Assembly: GCF_009377195.2 (NCBI RefSeq)
Contig: NZ_VJXX01000003.1
Location: 62,001-126,000, forward strand
Source: Arthrobacter bussei
Lineage (GTDB): Bacteria; Actinomycetota; Actinomycetes; Actinomycetales; Micrococcaceae
Length of the DNA stretch: 64,000 bases
Reading direction: 5' to 3'
Program-made: the position numbers and the translations under genes
Part shown: one piece after another, positions 7,514-38,230 of the stretch
Layout: the number at the start of each line of letters is the position of its first letter
How positions within the stretch are numbered: position 1 is the first letter of the stretch
Notes under the pieces: model-generated
What the model was told of the DNA's origin: nothing
Seen by the model: the letters and a program-made list of their open reading frames with translations, nothing else
Databases searched by the model: none

Positions 7514-10105
7514 TCAGTTGGGGATGACCGAGAACAGGACCTTCCTCTTCACCATGACCCAGATGATCAGGGTGACCACGGCGTGGATGACGAGGCCCTG
7601 CCAGAAGCTGGTGCGGTCCAGTCCCGGCAGGTTCCCGACCGCGAGCACGAAGAACACATGGACGATGAACACGTACAGGCTGGACTGCCCGAGCGGGATG
7701 TAGAGCCAGCCGAAGGCCCTGTTCAGCGGCTTCCAGAAGGAGGTTAGGATGGCATGCGCGGCGACGACGAAGAACGCCAGGTCGATCAGGCGCCCCGGCT
7801 GCATGAAGACGCGGACGTACCCGGCGTCGTACAGGCTCTCGTAGAAGCCGGCGGGGATGAACGGGAGCTGCAGGCGGAACGTCGAGTCGAGCCAGAGCAG
7901 GCCGAGTCCGAGTGCGTAGAGGCCGAGCAGCGTGCCGATGAGGATCTTGCCCCAGCTGCGGCTCAGCGTGTCGATGATGCGGCGGCGGTAGAAGCCGATC
8001 ACGATCCCGTGCACGAAGATCACCTGCCAGGTCAGCAGCGGGAACACGTCCTGGAACTGCGAATCGAGCACGCGGACGTGGACGATGCTGTCCAGCACGT
8101 ACAGCGCCCAGCTGACCAGGAGCAGCAGCCACCACAGCTTCCTGCGCAGCAGCTCGACGAGCAGCGGCACCGAGAGGGTCAGCACCACGAACAGTCCCAT
8201 GATGTTGAACGTCCACGGTCCCATGCTGAGCAGCAGCAGGTCCTGGATGGCGTAGCCGGGCGGCGGGTAGTCGAAGAGGCGTGCCGCGTTCGGGTAGAGG
8301 TCGTAGACCCGCCCGACGGCGCCCTCCCCGGTGTCCCCCGTCCCGCGGTCGGTGAAGGTGGTGATCACCGAGGCGTCGATGAACGGCACGAGCGAGAGCA
8401 GGTAGACGGCGATCACGACCCCGAGGGCGGTGAGGTAGAGGCGCAGGGCGCGCTTCATGTTGCCCTTGAGGGCGGCCCCGGAACCGAGCTTCCGGACGGC
8501 GATGGGATAGACCATCCCCATCACGACGCCGGAGAGCAGCACGAACAGCTCGGCTCCGGTGATCGCGCCGACGATGTTGAGCGCCACGAAGGACCACGGC
8601 CCCGCCACCTCGATGTGCGTGACGACGACGGCGGTGATGATCCAGCCGCGCAGCAGGTCCAGGCGCATGTCGCGCGGGTTCTGCTCGTTCGGGTAACGCC
8701 ACTGCGGCACGACCTTACGCGCCAGGCCGGCGAGGAGCACCAGCAGGAACAGCCCGACGACGGAAGCCACCAGCCAGCTCATCGCCGTGTTGGGGGAGGA
8801 CCCGGACTGCCAGACCTGGGACGTCGACTCGTTGGCGTCCTCCTGCCGGACGACGTCGGTGACGGGACCGAGGCGGAGGTCCGCAGCGGCGTCGAGCGTG
8901 TCCGTCAGCGCCGCCGTCGTCCCGTCCTCCATGCTCAGCCGCCAGTCGACGACATGGCCCTCGGCCTCCGGCTCGGGCCTCGACGCCTCGAGCCAGGCGA
9001 CCATCCCGATCTCGGGGTACTCGGCGGCGATCACCGGATCGAACAGCTGCTCCAGCCAGGCGGCTTTGATGTCGGCCTCGGGCGCACTGTCGGCGTCCTC
9101 GGGATCGAAGAGGGCCGCGGTCTGGACGAGGAACCGCTTGTCCTTCCCGGCGGCGTACTCCTTGGCGAAGTCGATCGTCGGGGCACCGGGCGCGATGCCG
9201 TAGGTACCGGCGAGCTGGTCGGCGAACTTGTCCGGCTCGGGCAGCACGGAGGTCTCGATGGCCCCGGAGTACTCGCGGGTGCCGTCGGCACTCGTCGTCG
9301 GGCCCTGCTCGTAACTGCCGAAGTGGTAGAGGGACAGGCCCACCCAGTCCACGGCGTCGTCACCCGGGTAGTACGGGGCGTAGGGGTCGTCGCCGCCGTC
9401 GATCAGGCCGTTGCCGTTCGTGTCGAGCGCGGGGACCGAGCCGGCCTCCAGGCCCTCGACGGCGCCGTACGCCTCGGTGAACGGGTACCCGGCCGCGTAG
9501 GAGGGCGCCCACACCAGGGCGGCGCCCGGCGCGCGCTCGTGCACGGCGCCCGCCACGGTCCGGAACGCGTCCACGTAGGCGTCGGGGTGCTGTCCCCAGC
9601 TGTGCCAGGTGCCGTTCATCTCCGGTGCGAAGCGGAGGAAGAACGCGGTGCGGAACTCCTCGTCGAGGCGCGCCAGAGTGTCCGCCAGGACCTCGGCGTC
9701 CGCCTCCGTCAGCTCGGTGAGCGGCTTCGAGGGCTCGAGGGTCACGACGGCGAGGGCGCCGAGTGGCGCGTCCTGCCGGACGAGGTCGGCGAGATCCCGC
9801 TCGGCGACGGCGTCCAGCGGGTAGGCGACGGGCCGGCTGAAGAACGACGGCGTGCTGCCGGTGCGGTCGGCGTAGGCGCGGGCGTTGTCCGTGGACCAGT
9901 CGAGCTCGGGGCCGAAGTACCGTCCGGCCGCGAGGCCGGTCGGGTCCCCGACCGGTGACTCGTCGGCACCCACGGTGGTGGCGGGCAGGTTCCCGGCCAG
10001 GGCATGGGCAGGGGTCCCGCCGCCGAGCACCCCGGCCACCAGGACCAGGAGGAGGATGAGGGCGCGCACGCCTGTGGGTGGCGCTGCCGTCGTCGTCGGG
10101 CTCAC
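7514..10105 (-). CDS. GH26-like domain fused to OpgC-type membrane acyltransferase
   Basis: 863 residues from GTG 10105, whose first bases overlap the stop of the upstream GT2 (GTGA, 4 bp). Residues 14-36 form a signal peptide/anchor. Residues about 45-405 resemble GH26 beta-mannanases: FLRFAPEMNGTWHSWG holds the acid/base Glu162, and a calcium-loop-like DTNGNGLIDGGDD is at 229-241. Where GH26 has its nucleophile Glu, this protein reads KRFLVQTAAL, so catalysis is doubtful. Residue 443-463 is a membrane helix. Residues about 475-860 form an OpgC/acyltransferase-3-like domain with about ten helices, RLDLLRGW and His497. Inference: it binds an exported glycan and decorates it with acyl groups. 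Confidence 0.85.
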   Translation of the reverse strand: MSPTTTAAPPTGVRALILLLVLVAGVLGGGTPAHALAGNLPATTVGADESPVGDPTGLAAGRYFGPELDWSTDNARAYADRTGSTPSFFSRPVAYPLDAVAERDLADLVRQDAPLGALAVVTLEPSKPLTELTEADAEVLADTLARLDEEFRTAFFLRFAPEMNGTWHSWGQHPDAYVDAFRTVAGAVHERAPGAALVWAPSYAAGYPFTEAYGAVEGLEAGSVPALDTNGNGLIDGGDDPYAPYYPGDDAVDWVGLSLYHFGSYEQGPTTSADGTREYSGAIETSVLPEPDKFADQLAGTYGIAPGAPTIDFAKEYAAGKDKRFLVQTAALFDPEDADSAPEADIKAAWLEQLFDPVIAAEYPEIGMVAWLEASRPEPEAEGHVVDWRLSMEDGTTAALTDTLDAAADLRLGPVTDVVRQEDANESTSQVWQSGSSPNTAMSWLVASVVGLFLLVLLAGLARKVVPQWRYPNEQNPRDMRLDLLRGWIITAVVVTHIEVAGPWSFVALNIVGAITGAELFVLLSGVVMGMVYPIAVRKLGSGAALKGNMKRALRLYLTALGVVIAVYLLSLVPFIDASVITTFTDRGTGDTGEGAVGRVYDLYPNAARLFDYPPPGYAIQDLLLLSMGPWTFNIMGLFVVLTLSVPLLVELLRRKLWWLLLLVSWALYVLDSIVHVRVLDSQFQDVFPLLTWQVIFVHGIVIGFYRRRIIDTLSRSWGKILIGTLLGLYALGLGLLWLDSTFRLQLPFIPAGFYESLYDAGYVRVFMQPGRLIDLAFFVVAAHAILTSFWKPLNRAFGWLYIPLGQSSLYVFIVHVFFVLAVGNLPGLDRTSFWQGLVIHAVVTLIIWVMVKRKVLFSVIPN

Positions 10106-12174
10106 GCCTTCGCGTCCTGCCGGGCCTTCGCCTCCGCGATGTCCGCCTGGTAGTGCTCGTAGCCGCGGTAGCGCACGGCTTCGATGATCACGCTGAAGAT
10201 CACGAGGTCGAAGATCACCCAGACGATGTTCACCGACGTGCCCAGGATGTCGGCCTGTCCCACGAGCATGCGGATGATGCCGATGATCACGGCGGCGACC
10301 AGCAGGCCCATCGCCCACAGCTGGGGCTTCACGAGGTCCCAGCGGAGCTGGTGGTCCTGCTGCAGGGTCTTCGGCGTCACGGCGAAGTCCAGGCTCCGCC
10401 CGAGGTACACGTTGCCGAACGCCGAGGTGATGGACCGGATCCAGATGGGGAACAGGGCGAGGGAGTACTGCTGCCCGCGCCAGGTCTTGACCCCCTTGCC
10501 GACGACGGCGAAGAGCAGCTGGTTGACCAGCAGGAAGGGGATGAGGCGGATGAAGAACTCCGTGCTGATGGAGTTCACGGGGAGGATGCCGAAGATCAGG
10601 TAGATGATCGGCGCGGCGATGTAGATGATCGCCGCGAAACCCGAGAGGTAGCTCCACATGGTCGCCCCGTACATCAGTTTCTGGGCGATCGTGAGGCCCT
10701 TCTGCGCGAAGGGGTTCTCGCGGAACAGTACCTGGATGGTGCCCTGTGCCCAGCGCAGGCGCTGTGTGAGCATGGAGTTCAGGTCCTCCGGTGCCAGTCC
10801 GTCGGCGAGCTTCTCGTGGTGGTAGGCCGTCTCCCACTTCAGGGAGTGCAGGCGCATGCACGTGGCCATGTCCTCCGTGACGGAGATGGTGGCCATGGGC
10901 ATCACGGCCTGCGCCTCGCCGCCGCGGTCCGCGTTGACCGACTCGATGAGCACCCGGACGGCGTCGATCGCGGCGAGCGGCGACCAGGAGCGCTGGGCGA
11001 GCTGGTCGAGCGCGGCGTCGTCGACGACGGCGAGTCCGGGCGTGCTGATGGAGGCGTCCTGCAGTCCCTCCTCCAGTCCGATGATGTCGAGGTCCGCGAG
11101 GGAGGCGAGGTCCTCGTGGAAGGCGGCGATGTCCGCGGCGACGAGCCCGCGGGTCACGGCCTGCATGCGCTGCTGGAACTCGTAGGTGACCTCGGAGATG
11201 CCATGGCCCTTCCCGAGGCGCCGGCGCACGCGCCGGATGTCCTTCGCCACGAGGTCGAGGGCTTCCTCGACCCGCTCTGAGTCGGGGCCGAGCCCCTTCT
11301 TGGCCTTGGCGATGACCTTGTCCGAGGTCTTCAGGGCCTTGTGGAGGGCCAGCTCGATCTCGGAGACGTACCGGGTGACGCCGAGCTGCATGAGGGCCTC
11401 GCGGCGGATGATCGCGTTGGACCCGCAGAAGAAGGCGGCGTTCCAGCCGTCCTTGCCCTGCTGGATGGGGCCGTAGAACAGGGGTGCCTGGCTGCCCAGG
11501 GGATCGGAGTCCGGGACGTTGACGAACACCTGCGGCGTCTGGACCAGGGCCATCTTCTCGTTCGTGAAGTAGCCGAGCGTCCGGTCGAGGATGAGCGGAT
11601 CGGGGATCTGGTCGGCGTCCAGGATCACGAGGAACTCCCCGTCGGTGGACATCAGGGCGTTGTTGAGGTTGCCGGCCTTCGCATGGCGCGGCATGTCCTT
11701 CCAGTCGGCGGAGCGCGTGATCCAGCCGATACCCTCCGCCTCGGCTGCTGCGCGCACCTCGGCGCGGTTGCCGTCGTCGAGGATCCACGTCCGGTGCGGG
11801 TAGCGGATGGCCTTGGCGGCGCGGGCCGTGGTGAGGACGAGGTCCAGCGGTTCGTTGTAGGTGGTGATGAAGACATCGACGGTGAGGCCTTCGGGTGCCT
11901 CGGGCGGCGTGCGCTTCTTCAGCTTCCACACCGTGAAGCCGAACAGCAGGGAGTCGATCAGGGAGTAGGTCTCCGCGAGGATCAGCGGGATGGCGATCCA
12001 CCAGGCATCCCAGTTGATGGAGAAGAGCCATCGCCAGACGATGTAGTTGATGCCCAGTACCGCGGTGACCAGCACGATCGCCCGGATGAGGAGCGTCCTG
12101 CCCTTCGGGAGGTCGTCATGCGCTGCGCTGCGCCGGGCGCGCTCGGACGGCCCGATCGGCGGAGTGTTCCCCAT
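10102..12174 (-). CDS. Cellulose-synthase-like processive GT2 glycosyltransferase
   Basis: 690 residues. Two N-terminal membrane helices (31-50, 56-78) precede a GT2 domain with LDDG (Asp133/134), DAD (186-188), TED (433-435) and QRLRW (471-475), the D,D,D,QxxRW set of BcsA-type processive synthases. About five C-terminal helices (residues 505-665) follow. There is no PilZ domain. The gap between DAD and TED is 247 residues, about 150 more than in BcsA; the insertion (about 266-428) is charged and partly coiled-coil. ATG 12174 is chosen because upstream frame is antisense. It is translationally coupled to the GH26-OpgC gene. The polymer made is unknown. Confidence 0.88.
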   Translation of the reverse strand: MGNTPPIGPSERARRSAAHDDLPKGRTLLIRAIVLVTAVLGINYIVWRWLFSINWDAWWIAIPLILAETYSLIDSLLFGFTVWKLKKRTPPEAPEGLTVDVFITTYNEPLDLVLTTARAAKAIRYPHRTWILDDGNRAEVRAAAEAEGIGWITRSADWKDMPRHAKAGNLNNALMSTDGEFLVILDADQIPDPLILDRTLGYFTNEKMALVQTPQVFVNVPDSDPLGSQAPLFYGPIQQGKDGWNAAFFCGSNAIIRREALMQLGVTRYVSEIELALHKALKTSDKVIAKAKKGLGPDSERVEEALDLVAKDIRRVRRRLGKGHGISEVTYEFQQRMQAVTRGLVAADIAAFHEDLASLADLDIIGLEEGLQDASISTPGLAVVDDAALDQLAQRSWSPLAAIDAVRVLIESVNADRGGEAQAVMPMATISVTEDMATCMRLHSLKWETAYHHEKLADGLAPEDLNSMLTQRLRWAQGTIQVLFRENPFAQKGLTIAQKLMYGATMWSYLSGFAAIIYIAAPIIYLIFGILPVNSISTEFFIRLIPFLLVNQLLFAVVGKGVKTWRGQQYSLALFPIWIRSITSAFGNVYLGRSLDFAVTPKTLQQDHQLRWDLVKPQLWAMGLLVAAVIIGIIRMLVGQADILGTSVNIVWVIFDLVIFSVIIEAVRYRGYEHYQADIAEAKARQDAKA

Positions 12175-12450
12175 GCTTCTGTGCTCTCCATCTGTTGCGC
12201 GCACGCGCGGGCGCGTCGCTTCGGTGACTTGTGTGCGCCGGGCCGGCCGCACTGAGACGCTCACCGGGCCACGAGGGACCGTGCAGCATGCACCAAAGGT
12301 ACCCGAGCGTGCTGCCGCTGCCACGTCGGGCATCGACTTGCGGTAATGCTGGGCACAATCTGCGCCGGACCATGGCACCGGCCGCATCCCGGTGCGCGAG
12401 GATTGAAGGGCCGGCACCGCGTGTGCGTGCCGGTGCCGCTGGGGCAGCCG

Positions 12451-12529
12451 CCCGGCGAGAAGGGCAAACCCGGTGCGAACCGGCGACGCAAAGCCACGGG
12501 ACCCCAGGGGTCAGCCGGGCTACCGAACC
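12451..12529 (+). promoter_or_regulatory. Cyclic-di-GMP-I (GEMM-I) riboswitch
   Basis: The leader of the GH16-like gene carries the conserved blocks GGGCAAACC (12462-12470), GACGCAAAGCCACGGG (12485-12500) and CAGCCGGGCTACCG (12512-12525). Between the first two is a perfect hairpin CCGGT-GCGA-ACCGG whose GNRA tetraloop (12475-12478) matches the docking loop of the class, and GACC-CCAG-GGTC forms the second helix. The Shine-Dalgarno AGAAGG (12530-12535) directly follows the 3' strand and the ATG is at 12543, so control is probably at translation initiation. On or off polarity cannot be read from sequence. Confidence 0.88.
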
Positions 12530-12542
12530 AGAAGGCGTGTGC

Positions 12543-13919
12543 ATGCTCCGTCGTCCAGCACTCCGTTCCGCCCTCAGCGGGGTCCTCTCGGCCCTCCTGC
12601 TCGCCGTCGCCGTACCCACGCCGGTCCTCGCGGCGGATACGACCCCGATGGCGGCCGTTCCCGGTCCCGTGGGTGATTTCGCCTGGAAGGGCCTCAACTG
12701 GGAGAAGCGCTGGTGGAGCGGCGCACCGAACTACAACAAGCGGTTCGATCCCGCCAACGTCAGCAGCCCTGACGCCAACGGCCACGTGACCATGACGCTG
12801 TCGAATCCGACCGGCGCCGCAACCATCGGCGCCGAGTTCAACACGACCCGTCACGGCTTCGGCTACGGCACCTACAGCACCACCATCGAGAAGGACCTCA
12901 CCACGCTCCAGAAGGAGGTGGTGTGGGGCTGCCTGTTCACCTACGACCCCGCCGTCGCCCCGGGCTACAACGAGATGGACCTGTGCGAGGCCAGCTCGTG
13001 GGGCGGCGGCAGCAACTACGGCCAGGTGTGGCCCATCACGCAGGGGCACGGCTACTGGTTCGACGCGAGCAAGGGACCCGGGGTCGGCAACGACACGGCG
13101 ATCTTCGGCGTCACGAACCATCCGATCCTCACGCATCGCATGGTGTGGGAGCCGGACAGGCTGACGTTCGAGACCTTCGCGGGGGAAGGCTACGGCGGCC
13201 CCCTGCTCAAGCGGACGGTGATGCAGGGCCCGAACGTCCCTGAGCCGGCCCGGGAGACCATCCACTTCAACCTCTGGGTGACCGACGGCGGGGGAGGGGA
13301 TCCGGCCCAGGTGAAACCGGAGAAGGTGGTGGTGAGGGACTTCTCGTTCACGCCTGCGCCGGTGACGGTTCCCGCCCCGTCGCCGACGGTTCCTGCGCCG
13401 TCGCCGTCCGCGAGTCCGGCGCCGACCGTTCCTGCGCCGTCGCCGTCCGCGAGTCCGGCGCCGACCGTTCCTGCGCCGTCGCCGTCCGCGAGTCCGTCGC
13501 CCACCGTTCCTGCGCCGACACCTACGCCGACGAAGCCGGCCCCGACACCGAGCCCGTCACCGACCGTACCTGCGCCGACGCCGACGAAGCCGGCCCCGAC
13601 ACCGAGCCCGTCACCGACCGTTCCTGCGCCGACGAAGCCGGCCCCGACACCCACGCCCACGGCGAGTCCGTCGCCGAAGCCGCCCGCCCTGCCCAGCGCC
13701 ATCACGCTCGCGGCCAGGAACACCACGGTGCATCGGCTGTACGCCACGACGCTGACGTGGTCCGGGGCTCAGGGGTCCACGGTCACCCTGGTGGCCAACG
13801 GAAGTCGCCGCCCGGTCGTGAACTCGGGCCGGATGGCGACCTCGTCGAAGACACCCTCGGCGCGGTACCAGATCTGTGACGCGTCCCGCTGCTCGCCGAT
13901 CGTCCTCGGCGGGCGCTGA
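12543..13919 (+). CDS. Secreted GH16-like (concanavalin-fold) protein with Pro-rich linker
   Basis: 458 residues. An N-terminal signal peptide ends near VLAADT. Residues about 40-275 form a GH16/lectin-like beta-jellyroll with [11 protein letters not shown], the catalytic-type motif EMDLCE (ExDxxE) and a C-terminal FNLWVTDG strand. Then comes a Pro/Ser/Thr linker of about 110 residues with repeats of [15 protein letters not shown]-terminal module follows ([18 protein letters not shown] ... [10 protein letters not shown]) like the small Fn3-related domains of secreted actinobacterial hydrolases. The ATG lies 13 nt after a cyclic-di-GMP riboswitch, and the gene is divergent from the GT2/OpgC operon. 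It may trim or bind that polysaccharide; the substrate is unknown. Confidence 0.82.
13389..13505 (+). repeat. Three tandem 39-bp repeats encoding Pro-rich linker
   Basis: Copies start at 13389, 13428 and 13467, each encoding [13 protein letters not shown] or a close variant. A second family of longer units with ACGAAGCCGGCCCCGACACC follows to about 13650. The array is in frame, so copy-number change would alter linker length without frameshift. Confidence 0.85.
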
Positions 13920-36199: not shown

Positions 36200-38230
36200 A
36201 TGCACGGGGTGAACGGGCCGCACTTCGGCGAGGGCAGGGTGCCGGAGGATCTGCTCATCCAGGCGATGGCCGCCACGTCCGAGATCTCGCTCATCGCCGA
36301 CGCCGACCAGAAGATCCTGCACGTCTCCGATTCCTTCGTGAACATCACCGGGTACGGCCGTGAGGAGGCGCTCGGGCGCAATTGCCGCATGCTGCAGGGC
36401 CCGGGCACCGACCCGGAGACGACGGCGGCCATCCGCCACGCCCTCACCGCGGGCACGCCCTTCAACGGGGAGATCCTCAACTACCGCAAGGACGGTTCTG
36501 CCTTCTGGAACGCGCTGCGCATCACGCCGCTGCGGTCCGCGAGCGGCGCCGTCACGCATTTCGTCAGTGTCCAGCGGGACATCAACACCAGGATGGCGCT
36601 CCACGAACAGCTGCGTTTCCAGGCCCTGCACGACCAGGTGACGGGTCTGCCCAACCGCGCGGCCATGGGGGAGCGCATCAGACTGCTCCTCGGGTCCGGC
36701 CCGGCGGGGGAGCACGTCACCGCCATCGGGCTGATCGACCTCGACGACTTCCGCGACATCAACAACAGCTACGGCCACGAGGCCGGGGACGAGCTCCTGC
36801 GGGAGTGGGCACTGCGGCTGCAGGGGCTGCTCCGCGACGGGGACGTCCTCGGCAGGATGGGTGGCGACGAGTTCCTCGTGATCTTCAGGGACATCCCGCC
36901 GGCGGACGCGGAGGCCGCCTTCCACCGGTTGCTCGAGCCCCTGCTCGAGATGGCCGGGACGCCCTTCCTGGTCGGCGGCAGCGACGTCACGATCGGGATG
37001 AGCATGGGGATCGCCCTGCTGCCTGCCGAGGGCGCCGATGATGCCGCCGTCCTCCGCGTGGCCGACGAAGCGCTCTACGCCGTGAAGCAGCGCAAGGCCG
37101 ACCGCGTGCAGTGGTGGGAACTCGGGGCTCCCGTCGGAGGGGAGCCGGACCCGGACGTGACGGGCGACGACGGCCCGGTAGGACCGCCCGAGGAGATCGG
37201 GCGGTCCTACCGGCGGGCCCTGGACACGGGTGTCGTGGTCTATCTCCAGCCGGTGGTCGACCTCAGGAAGGGGGGCGTCCACCTCTTCGAGGCGCTCGCA
37301 CGGCTGGAGCTGCCGGGCGGTCGTCTCGCCGCGCCCGGCGAGTTCCTGCCCCACCTCGACGCCGCCGATCTCGACCGGCTGTTCTCGCGGGTGCTCGACG
37401 ACTCACTGGACCGTTTCAGCGCCTGGTACCGCGACGGCGTCTGCGACGGGATCTCGGTGAACCTGCCGCCCTCCGTGCTCCTGCGCCCGGCCCTGGTCGG
37501 CGACCTGGCATACTCGCTCGTCCGGCACGGAGTGCCCGCCCGATGCCTCACGCTGGAGCTCCTGGAGTCGGACAGCGTCGATTCCGAGGCGCAGAGCGAG
37601 GTGCTGCAGGAGATCGCCGGGCTCGGCGTCGGTGTGGCGATGGATGATCTCGGAGCCGGCTACAGCAGTCTCAAGCGCCTCTCCACACTGCCGTTCACCA
37701 CCATCAAGCTGGACCGTGATCTCCTCGCGGGCATCCACACGCGCCCCACGGATGCCCTGAGCATGATCGCCACCCTGATCCAGATGGGCCGGGACTTCGG
37801 GATGAAGGTGGTGATCGAGGGCATCGAGGACCGCAGCGTCGCCGAGGCCGTGACGGTGCTGGGTGCCGCCCTCGGGCAGGGGTACTACTTCTGCCGGCCC
37901 ATCCCGGCTGCCGAGGTGCCCGCCTTCGCCGGCCGCTTCGGCGAGGCCTTCCACCCCAATCGCTTCCGGACCCACCTCGGAGCGCTCGCCTACCACTGGC
38001 AGTTCGCGCGCCTCGGATCCCCGCACCCGCGCGAGCTCGCGGACTGTCCGCTCAGCCACTTCCTGTCCGCGGTCGGCTCGCCGACCGACGTGGAGCGCTG
38101 GCACGCACAGCAGCACGACGGGCGCGCGGTGCACCTCGGCGCCGGACAGCTCATGGTCGACTGGCTCGTCCAGCAGGTCCGGTTGGCGGCCGAGCAGGTC
38201 AGCGCCCTCCCGGTGGCCGGCGCATCCTGA
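36200..38230 (+). CDS. LOV-GGDEF-EAL cyclic-di-GMP signalling protein
   Basis: 676 residues. LOV domain (about 20-130): GRNCRMLQG with flavin-binding Cys62, plus Asn94 (ILNYRKDG), Asn104 (FWNAL) and Gln125 (FVSVQRDI), the full FMN-adduct set. GGDEF domain (about 140-305) is intact (221-225) with an inhibitory I-site RDGD (212-215). EAL domain (about 335-575) keeps EALAR (364-368), Asn421, Glu453, DD 482-483, Lys503 and Glu540. Both making and breaking cyclic-di-GMP are possible. The C-terminal 100 residues carry His599, Cys616, His635 and His639, which resemble a zinc-binding CZB set. No membrane helix, so a cytoplasmic blue-light and possibly zinc sensor. Confidence 0.92.
   Translation: MHGVNGPHFGEGRVPEDLLIQAMAATSEISLIADADQKILHVSDSFVNITGYGREEALGRNCRMLQGPGTDPETTAAIRHALTAGTPFNGEILNYRKDGSAFWNALRITPLRSASGAVTHFVSVQRDINTRMALHEQLRFQALHDQVTGLPNRAAMGERIRLLLGSGPAGEHVTAIGLIDLDDFRDINNSYGHEAGDELLREWALRLQGLLRDGDVLGRMGGDEFLVIFRDIPPADAEAAFHRLLEPLLEMAGTPFLVGGSDVTIGMSMGIALLPAEGADDAAVLRVADEALYAVKQRKADRVQWWELGAPVGGEPDPDVTGDDGPVGPPEEIGRSYRRALDTGVVVYLQPVVDLRKGGVHLFEALARLELPGGRLAAPGEFLPHLDAADLDRLFSRVLDDSLDRFSAWYRDGVCDGISVNLPPSVLLRPALVGDLAYSLVRHGVPARCLTLELLESDSVDSEAQSEVLQEIAGLGVGVAMDDLGAGYSSLKRLSTLPFTTIKLDRDLLAGIHTRPTDALSMIATLIQMGRDFGMKVVIEGIEDRSVAEAVTVLGAALGQGYYFCRPIPAAEVPAFAGRFGEAFHPNRFRTHLGALAYHWQFARLGSPHPRELADCPLSHFLSAVGSPTDVERWHAQQHDGRAVHLGAGQLMVDWLVQQVRLAAEQVSALPVAGAS

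Follow-up and report, generated by a model that had tools for sequence, protein, structure and literature searches.

The leader of a gene for a secreted GH16-fold, glucanase-like protein of Arthrobacter bussei probably holds a cyclic-di-GMP-I riboswitch that acts on translation and belongs to a genus-wide riboregulon. The identity and position of the aptamer are matters of observation. When the window, by which is meant the whole 64,000-nucleotide stretch that was analysed, was scanned with cmscan and 4227 Rfam families, the sole match over gathering threshold was RF01051 (c-di-GMP-I, or GEMM-I) at 12453-12527 of the forward strand, with 61.3 bits against a cut-off of 35, an E-value of 1.5e-9, and coverage of model positions 1-87 of 87 so that it is complete at both ends. 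The original prediction had assigned the leader to this class from the sequence alone, and the covariance search bears it out; the three conserved blocks (GGCAAA, GACGCAAAG and GGGCUACCGAA) and the GNRA-loop hairpin, GGU-GCGA-ACC, that it had named are likewise in the sequence. It had placed the Shine-Dalgarno one base after the aptamer. Actually two bases lie between 12527 and the AGAAGG that is read from the sequence at 12530-12535 (+), 7 nt before the AUG; the ATG of the GH16-like gene is at 12543, 16 bases past the last model position.

On the 5′ side the aptamer is abutted by a hairpin, here termed P0 (12438-12456, +), which is outside the paired part of RF01051 and was recognised from covariation in the genus leaders, and further out an inverted repeat read from the sequence, GCCGGCAC ... 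GTGCCGGT (12410-12434, +), could form a hairpin at the 5′ end. A consensus scan of 12175-12600 gave no promoter-like and no intrinsic-terminator-like site. Plain minimum-energy folding gave three stretches of the window leader no stability beyond that of shuffles (z 1.22, -0.49 and 0.67), so that the evidence for a riboswitch comes from the covariance model and from comparison. Plasmid origin was tried as well, and 12380-12560 had no match in a plasmid collection. By its sequence the window element is an ordinary member of a known riboswitch class.

How widely is the aptamer distributed, and what does it precede? The window’s own genome (3.63 Mb, 42 contigs) has three RF01051 matches, at 65.2, 61.3 and 58.9 bits, and within the genus conservation is evident from 48 copies in 32 of 38 genomes. 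Since a family-wide sample had RF01051 in 23 of 295 genomes, these being 19 of the 22 genus members listed plus four others, it is concentrated in the genus Arthrobacter. The genes behind the 48 aptamers, typed by motif, comprise 22 OmpR-type response regulators, 18 GH26-like secreted proteins, six GH16-like proteins and two left untyped by motif, one of which encodes a GH5 protein (L099) and the other is masked by N (L042). The 18 GH26 assignments are all consistent with where the riboswitch-type GH26 gene was located in the genomes. The second copy in the own genome (L004 10001-11329) precedes a secreted GH26-like protein (PF02156, 3.9e-10) with an IPT/TIG-like domain, and the third (L005 10001-11021) an OmpR-type receiver/winged-helix response regulator. 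The view that a hydrolase-like gene is the riboswitch target thus stands for the GH16-like gene and needs widening to a response regulator and a GH26-like protein. A short ORF begins at the first ATG, 12-19 nt past the aptamer, in 20 of the 22 leaders of regulators, and all of these 20 but L043 have the stop of that ORF overlapping an ATG in the regulator frame (19 leaders), the overlap being of the ATGAATAG, ATGAGTAG or ATGA type; in the remaining two of the 22 the first ATG opens the regulator itself. The arrangement suggests a putative leader peptide translationally coupled to the response regulator. No published description of a riboregulon of response regulator, GH26-like and GH16-like proteins was found in the literature searched, which was mainly in the form of titles and the starts of abstracts. 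Outside the genus, a GEMM-I riboswitch was also seen at L136 (G135 C97), in a genome with four riboswitch matches; the longest ORF there starts 123 nt downstream and its likeness to AraC-type regulators is by eye only.

Alignment of the 48 genus leaders, 46 of them distinct, reveals features beyond the class description. P0 has both-side changes at 7 of its 7 pairs, with 81.4% of cells paired among the 46 distinct leaders, and the window copy (row L002) keeps 6 of the 7 as standard pairs; this covarying hairpin 5′ of the aptamer is new. The covariation score of the whole leader structure is 0.175 versus 0.100 in shuffles, none of 500 being as high, in a control in which relatedness remains. 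Beside the ligand pocket a Watson-Crick P1 amounts to 0-2 adjacent pairs in 47 of the 48 leaders, one in the window copy, in a comparison of genus leaders alone. P1 is optional for membership of RF01051, being unpaired in the Rfam model, and its canonical form is absent from the window copy. The lack of P1 is also new, as are the uniform spacing considered below and, from sister lineages, two other conserved leaders and one aptamer without a ligand core.

Two further columns are invariant, a G in 48 of 48 leaders and, as the first C of the 3′ CC block, a C in 48 of 48; we take these to be the equivalents of Vc2 G20 and C92. The first of them bears on the identity of the ligand. GEMM-I members with specificity for another cyclic dinucleotide, c-AMP-GMP, exist, to judge from titles cited in PMC9262584, and the genus aptamers might in principle sense that molecule instead. 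That is very improbable given the unvarying G and a genome that has six GGDEF and five EAL matches, even if the G20 position, in what was drawn from PMC9262584, contributes to selectivity without being a hard filter. Binding of c-di-GMP by the window copy, and its action on translation, are what the sequence comparison would predict.

At what level would such binding act? With only two bases between the aptamer and the Shine-Dalgarno, the ligand-bound fold would be expected to change ribosome access to the start of the GH16-like gene. The first ATG follows the end of the aptamer by 12-21 nt in 48 of 48 leaders, which favours a control of translation initiation exerted near the aptamer. A transcriptional mode, Rho-dependent or otherwise, or control through mRNA stability has its precedent in Vc1 of Vibrio cholerae, for which neither an apparent terminator nor an anti-Shine-Dalgarno is reported and whose mechanism is called unclear in the sections of PMC4744006 drawn on here; set against the constant spacing, and against a window leader in which no intrinsic terminator was found, control at such levels is unlikely. 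The direction of the predicted translational effect is harder to read. When free folds were compared with folds in which the aptamer was enforced, the Shine-Dalgarno was more open in the latter for 12 of 22 regulator, 8 of 18 GH26 and 4 of 6 GH16 leaders, which is no consistent sign (L029 was counted with 6 of its 18 aptamer pairs mapped, and three leaders with 74- or 76-nt matches were cut at 75). Sequestration of the Shine-Dalgarno by the GGGCUACC arm of the aptamer was attractive by eye in several GH26 leaders and was rejected as it proved no better than in shuffles: with 39 leaders (the other nine of the 48 being repeats or having no Shine-Dalgarno that was recognised) Wilcoxon p was 0.46 for 16 regulator, 0.49 for 15 GH26 and 0.31 for six GH16 leaders, and the pairing is weak in the window copy. 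Because of the inconsistent opening and the lack of enrichment of this hairpin over shuffles, no expression platform was identified. Known class I c-di-GMP switches go both ways, ON and OFF, as given in the portion of PMC6366702 used. For the GH16-like gene we lean, if only slightly, to ligand lowering translation, because a compact aptamer near the start would compete with the ribosome and no separate anti-Shine-Dalgarno was found.

The regulated gene occupies 12543-13919 (+), 459 codons with the stop, and its product, as seen from a model, PDB matches and an alignment, has a signal peptide, a GH16-like domain at about residues 34-272, a Pro/Thr/Ser-rich linker and a short C-terminal part, the signal peptide and linker being judged by eye. 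It has no Pfam match at E up to 10 and none in NCBIfam; none of the 38 aligned rows matched a Pfam glycosidase family at E up to 1, and PDB searched by sequence gave nothing for the domain. An AlphaFold2 model from the 38 rows (pLDDT 72.3, pTM 0.72) has as its top structural matches in PDB GH16-type beta-glucanases, the best being 3o5s (E 2.8e-10, TM 0.76 by target length). The match list is headed by Bacillus (1,3;1,4)-beta-glucanases, with beta-glucanases and laminarinases at the top, and the other enzymes among the best 50 matches we take to be mostly GH16 also. The residues E144, D146 and E149 form an ExDxxE that is invariant in 38 of 38 rows, and ExDxxE (or ExDxE) is the GH16 catalytic motif. 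The secreted GH16-like product of the original prediction is upheld by the modelled fold, and the protein is probably an active one; as it is without a curated-profile match it is not filed as a GH16 member. Among named relatives the nearest is that of Arthrobacter sp. Leaf234, whose protein is 97% identical.

Do the orthologues have the same leader? With a model built from the 48 genus leaders, the riboswitch is strong (88 to 110 bits) in six of 46 named GH16 loci, L048, L049, L056, L059, L076 and L085. Only L085 is independent of the model, since the other five are records of genomes whose leaders went into it (same contigs or equal scores). Within the genus, five of 11 near full-length copies of the gene are without the riboswitch. 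The expectation of a shared leader upstream of orthologues therefore held for a minority, the other named loci having one of three further leaders or, by eye, none of these in three cases. Leader D, in L088 (7853-7943) and L089 (7781-7871), scores 33.8 and 24.0 bits; it keeps P0 and the outer helices and has lost most of the ligand core, GACGCAAAG being replaced, and by eye the former core residues are now paired as an extension of the P1b hairpin. Leader X, assigned by eye in 20 loci of Arthrobacter and Pseudarthrobacter (L050-L055, L057, L058, L064, L065, L067, L068, L071, L075, L080, L082, L084, L087, L092 and L093), has two hairpins and then a GGGGCG Shine-Dalgarno region that is repeated in the first hairpin. 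Either of these two GGGGCG-type segments, one of which is over the Shine-Dalgarno, can pair with the same upstream strand, which is what a switch would require; covariation in leader X is little (two pairs) and gives no support to the alternative pairing. Leader Y, similarly assigned in 15 loci of Paenarthrobacter and relatives (L060-L063, L066, L069, L070, L072, L073, L077-L079, L081, L083 and L086), contains two hairpins that covary, and its Shine-Dalgarno is preceded by an invariant TCTGGGCGCATCA segment; six pairs are changed on both sides, and the score is 0.268 versus 0.159. One X and one Y leader had no Rfam match at E up to 1, and at gathering level there was none in another five loci of X and another one of Y except for a c-di-AMP riboswitch elsewhere in L050.

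Is the copy in the window then a non-functional relic, with only the regulator and GH26 copies responding? Most named relatives have another leader on the GH16-like gene and two keep a related one without the ligand core, as a relic might lead one to expect. Against this the window copy keeps the whole core, scores between the genome’s other two copies, and has its riboswitch shared by the near relatives L048, L049 and L056, all of which leaves a relic with little probability and a functional riboswitch as the preferred reading. A tree of the GH16-like genes places each of X, Y and D in a group of its own, with modest support for X (85/71) and D sister to Y (91/86), and the seven riboswitch rows, the window included, are scattered outside these groups and need two changes. 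The tree, rooted at its midpoint, fits a putative ancestral riboswitch replaced or decayed in daughter lineages, with gain in several lineages also possible. The fuller proposal, that the riboswitch was ancestral, that D is its collapse, and that control of the same secreted glucanase module passed to X and Y as undescribed regulatory RNAs, is tentative and on balance rather unlikely. Such change of leader type on a single gene would allow riboswitch gain, decay and replacement to be studied.

X and Y were also considered as widespread new riboswitches, and this was rejected: at E of 0.001 or less X was seen in at least eight and Y in at least five of 295 family genomes, counts that are lower bounds because 14 to 17 candidates were scored per genome. 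The genomes with a match have one each, except for two in G215. The better rows that hold a GH16-like gene are L120-L122 for Y and L125-L129 for X; the weak rows L123, L124 and L132 look like chance. Leader X also precedes other genes, namely those for an RHS-repeat protein (L133), its near-copy L130 and an unassigned protein (L131).

A response regulator recurs in the loci with leader X. All 20 encode one near the GH16-like gene, and it belongs to the subfamily of the regulator that the riboswitch controls, although L087 aligns with it partly and L053 and L080 in pieces; it is divergent and within about 0.5 kb upstream in 19 of the 20, L057 having it next to a second copy of GH16. At E 1e-8 it is absent from the examined flanks of all 15 type Y loci. 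That the type X-locus regulators are orthologues of the riboswitch-controlled one was considered and rejected, the near full-length matches being 43-48% identical. As paralogues of the latter in the own genome are 58, 48 and 47% identical, some of them thus being no more distant, only the regulator subfamily is shared. The occurrence together of this subfamily, c-di-GMP enzymes and the GH16-like gene in different lineages by different means supports one functional module. Separately, a GGDEF-EAL protein-coding region is in the same window at 36623-37900 (+). In the own genome one paralogue of the riboswitch-controlled regulator is about 0.2 kb from a GGDEF-EAL gene (G000:C9:1599717-1601907).

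Divergent from the riboswitch gene is the polysaccharide synthase operon that had been noted beside it, and its first gene (10102-12174, -) indeed encodes a BcsA/cellulose-synthase-like GT2 synthase (PF03552, PF00535) that matches BcsA structures with a best E of 9.9e-68; its 342.2 bits with NCBIfam CelA TIGR03030 are under the cut-off of 699.1. The GTG start of the following gene (7514-10105, -), for a fused GH26-like and OpgC acyltransferase-like protein (PF10129, 4.7e-49; PF02156, 3.2e-4), overlaps the synthase stop. That the synthase is without PilZ was confirmed by a Pfam scan at E up to 0.001, and PilZ was found in none of the 38 genus genomes, a control search having found it in five of 14 well-known genomes. 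In view of this absence, RNA may be a major c-di-GMP receptor in the genus. The absence does not show that the synthase ignores c-di-GMP, because BgsA of S. meliloti is without PilZ and yet its C-terminal peptide can bind c-di-GMP, according to the part of PMC10374906 consulted.

The original prediction went further in suggesting that c-di-GMP, through the one switch, could set a balance between the polymer of the neighbouring synthase and its processing by the GH16-like protein. The two genes lie side by side and diverge in the window as they do in L048 and L056, and the synthase is beside a riboswitch-bearing GH16 gene in G000 (the window’s genome), G020 and G032 and beside a riboswitch-bearing GH26 gene in G005, G010 and G031; its neighbour in G021 and G027 is a GH26 relative without a riboswitch match. 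With adjacency in just two of the 46 named GH16 loci, and no synthase relative in the flanks of the other 44 (examined for up to 8 kb, less at contig ends), the neighbourhood is not general. Three of the 10 genus genomes with a GH16-like gene are without the synthase, and the polymer is only a putative substrate. What fares better is the genomic association with the GH26 gene. Of the 38 genus genomes, 25 have the synthase; the riboswitch-type GH26 gene is in 23 of these 25, with the riboswitch in front in 18 of the 23, and in none of the 13 genomes lacking the synthase, a co-occurrence with a Fisher p of 1.9e-8 when related genomes are treated as independent. The balance model is partly supported and as a whole has less than an even chance. 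The likeliest reading is that c-di-GMP governs a secreted glycan-processing module through a riboregulon, which would extend to an OmpR-type response regulator, usually by way of a short overlapping leader ORF, and to secreted GH26-like and GH16-like proteins, and which would work alongside the PilZ-less cellulose-synthase-like operon. A sensor set before two enzyme families and a regulator suggests signal-controlled handling of an outer polysaccharide. The class call first made for this leader is correct, the mechanism is more modest than was stated and the biology wider: the response regulator, GH26 and GH16 genes are a concrete, testable set of c-di-GMP outputs and point to a c-di-GMP-linked exopolysaccharide system whose polymer is perhaps a mixed-linkage beta-glucan.

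By analogy the nearest functional parallel is Vc1, which is upstream of gbpA. There too an aptamer of the same class stands before the gene for a secreted carbohydrate-related protein, with neither terminator nor anti-Shine-Dalgarno apparent. In Vc1, as the excerpted part of PMC4744006 has it, the aptamer is in the first 111 nt and the translation start 225-244 nt from the transcript start, in contrast to an AUG only 16 nt past the aptamer in the window, and ligand raises expression. For Vc2 and Cd1, members of the same class, the portion of PMC9262584 drawn on describes Vc2 as a translational OFF switch for which P1 is essential and Cd1 as without a P1 helix and acting at the transcriptional level. 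The genus leaders resemble Cd1 in this and differ from Vc2, which needs P1, as 47 of 48 have no Watson-Crick P1 of at least three pairs and a covarying 5′ hairpin is present. The (1,3;1,4)-beta-glucan synthases BgsA and RiGT2 are, like the window synthase, BcsA-like, and they are discussed in connection with c-di-GMP, BgsA being also without PilZ (PMC10374906, in part); the window synthase differs in its OpgC/GH26-like partner, and the likeness to BgsA is one of description. Finally, in cmrRST of C. difficile an upstream c-di-GMP riboswitch controls OmpR-family response regulators, as stated in the part of PMC12548384 used, so that an OmpR-family regulator as target is common to both; the lineage is another one, and the Arthrobacter regulator, usually with its overlapping leader ORF, shares its riboswitch type with secreted glycosidase-like proteins.
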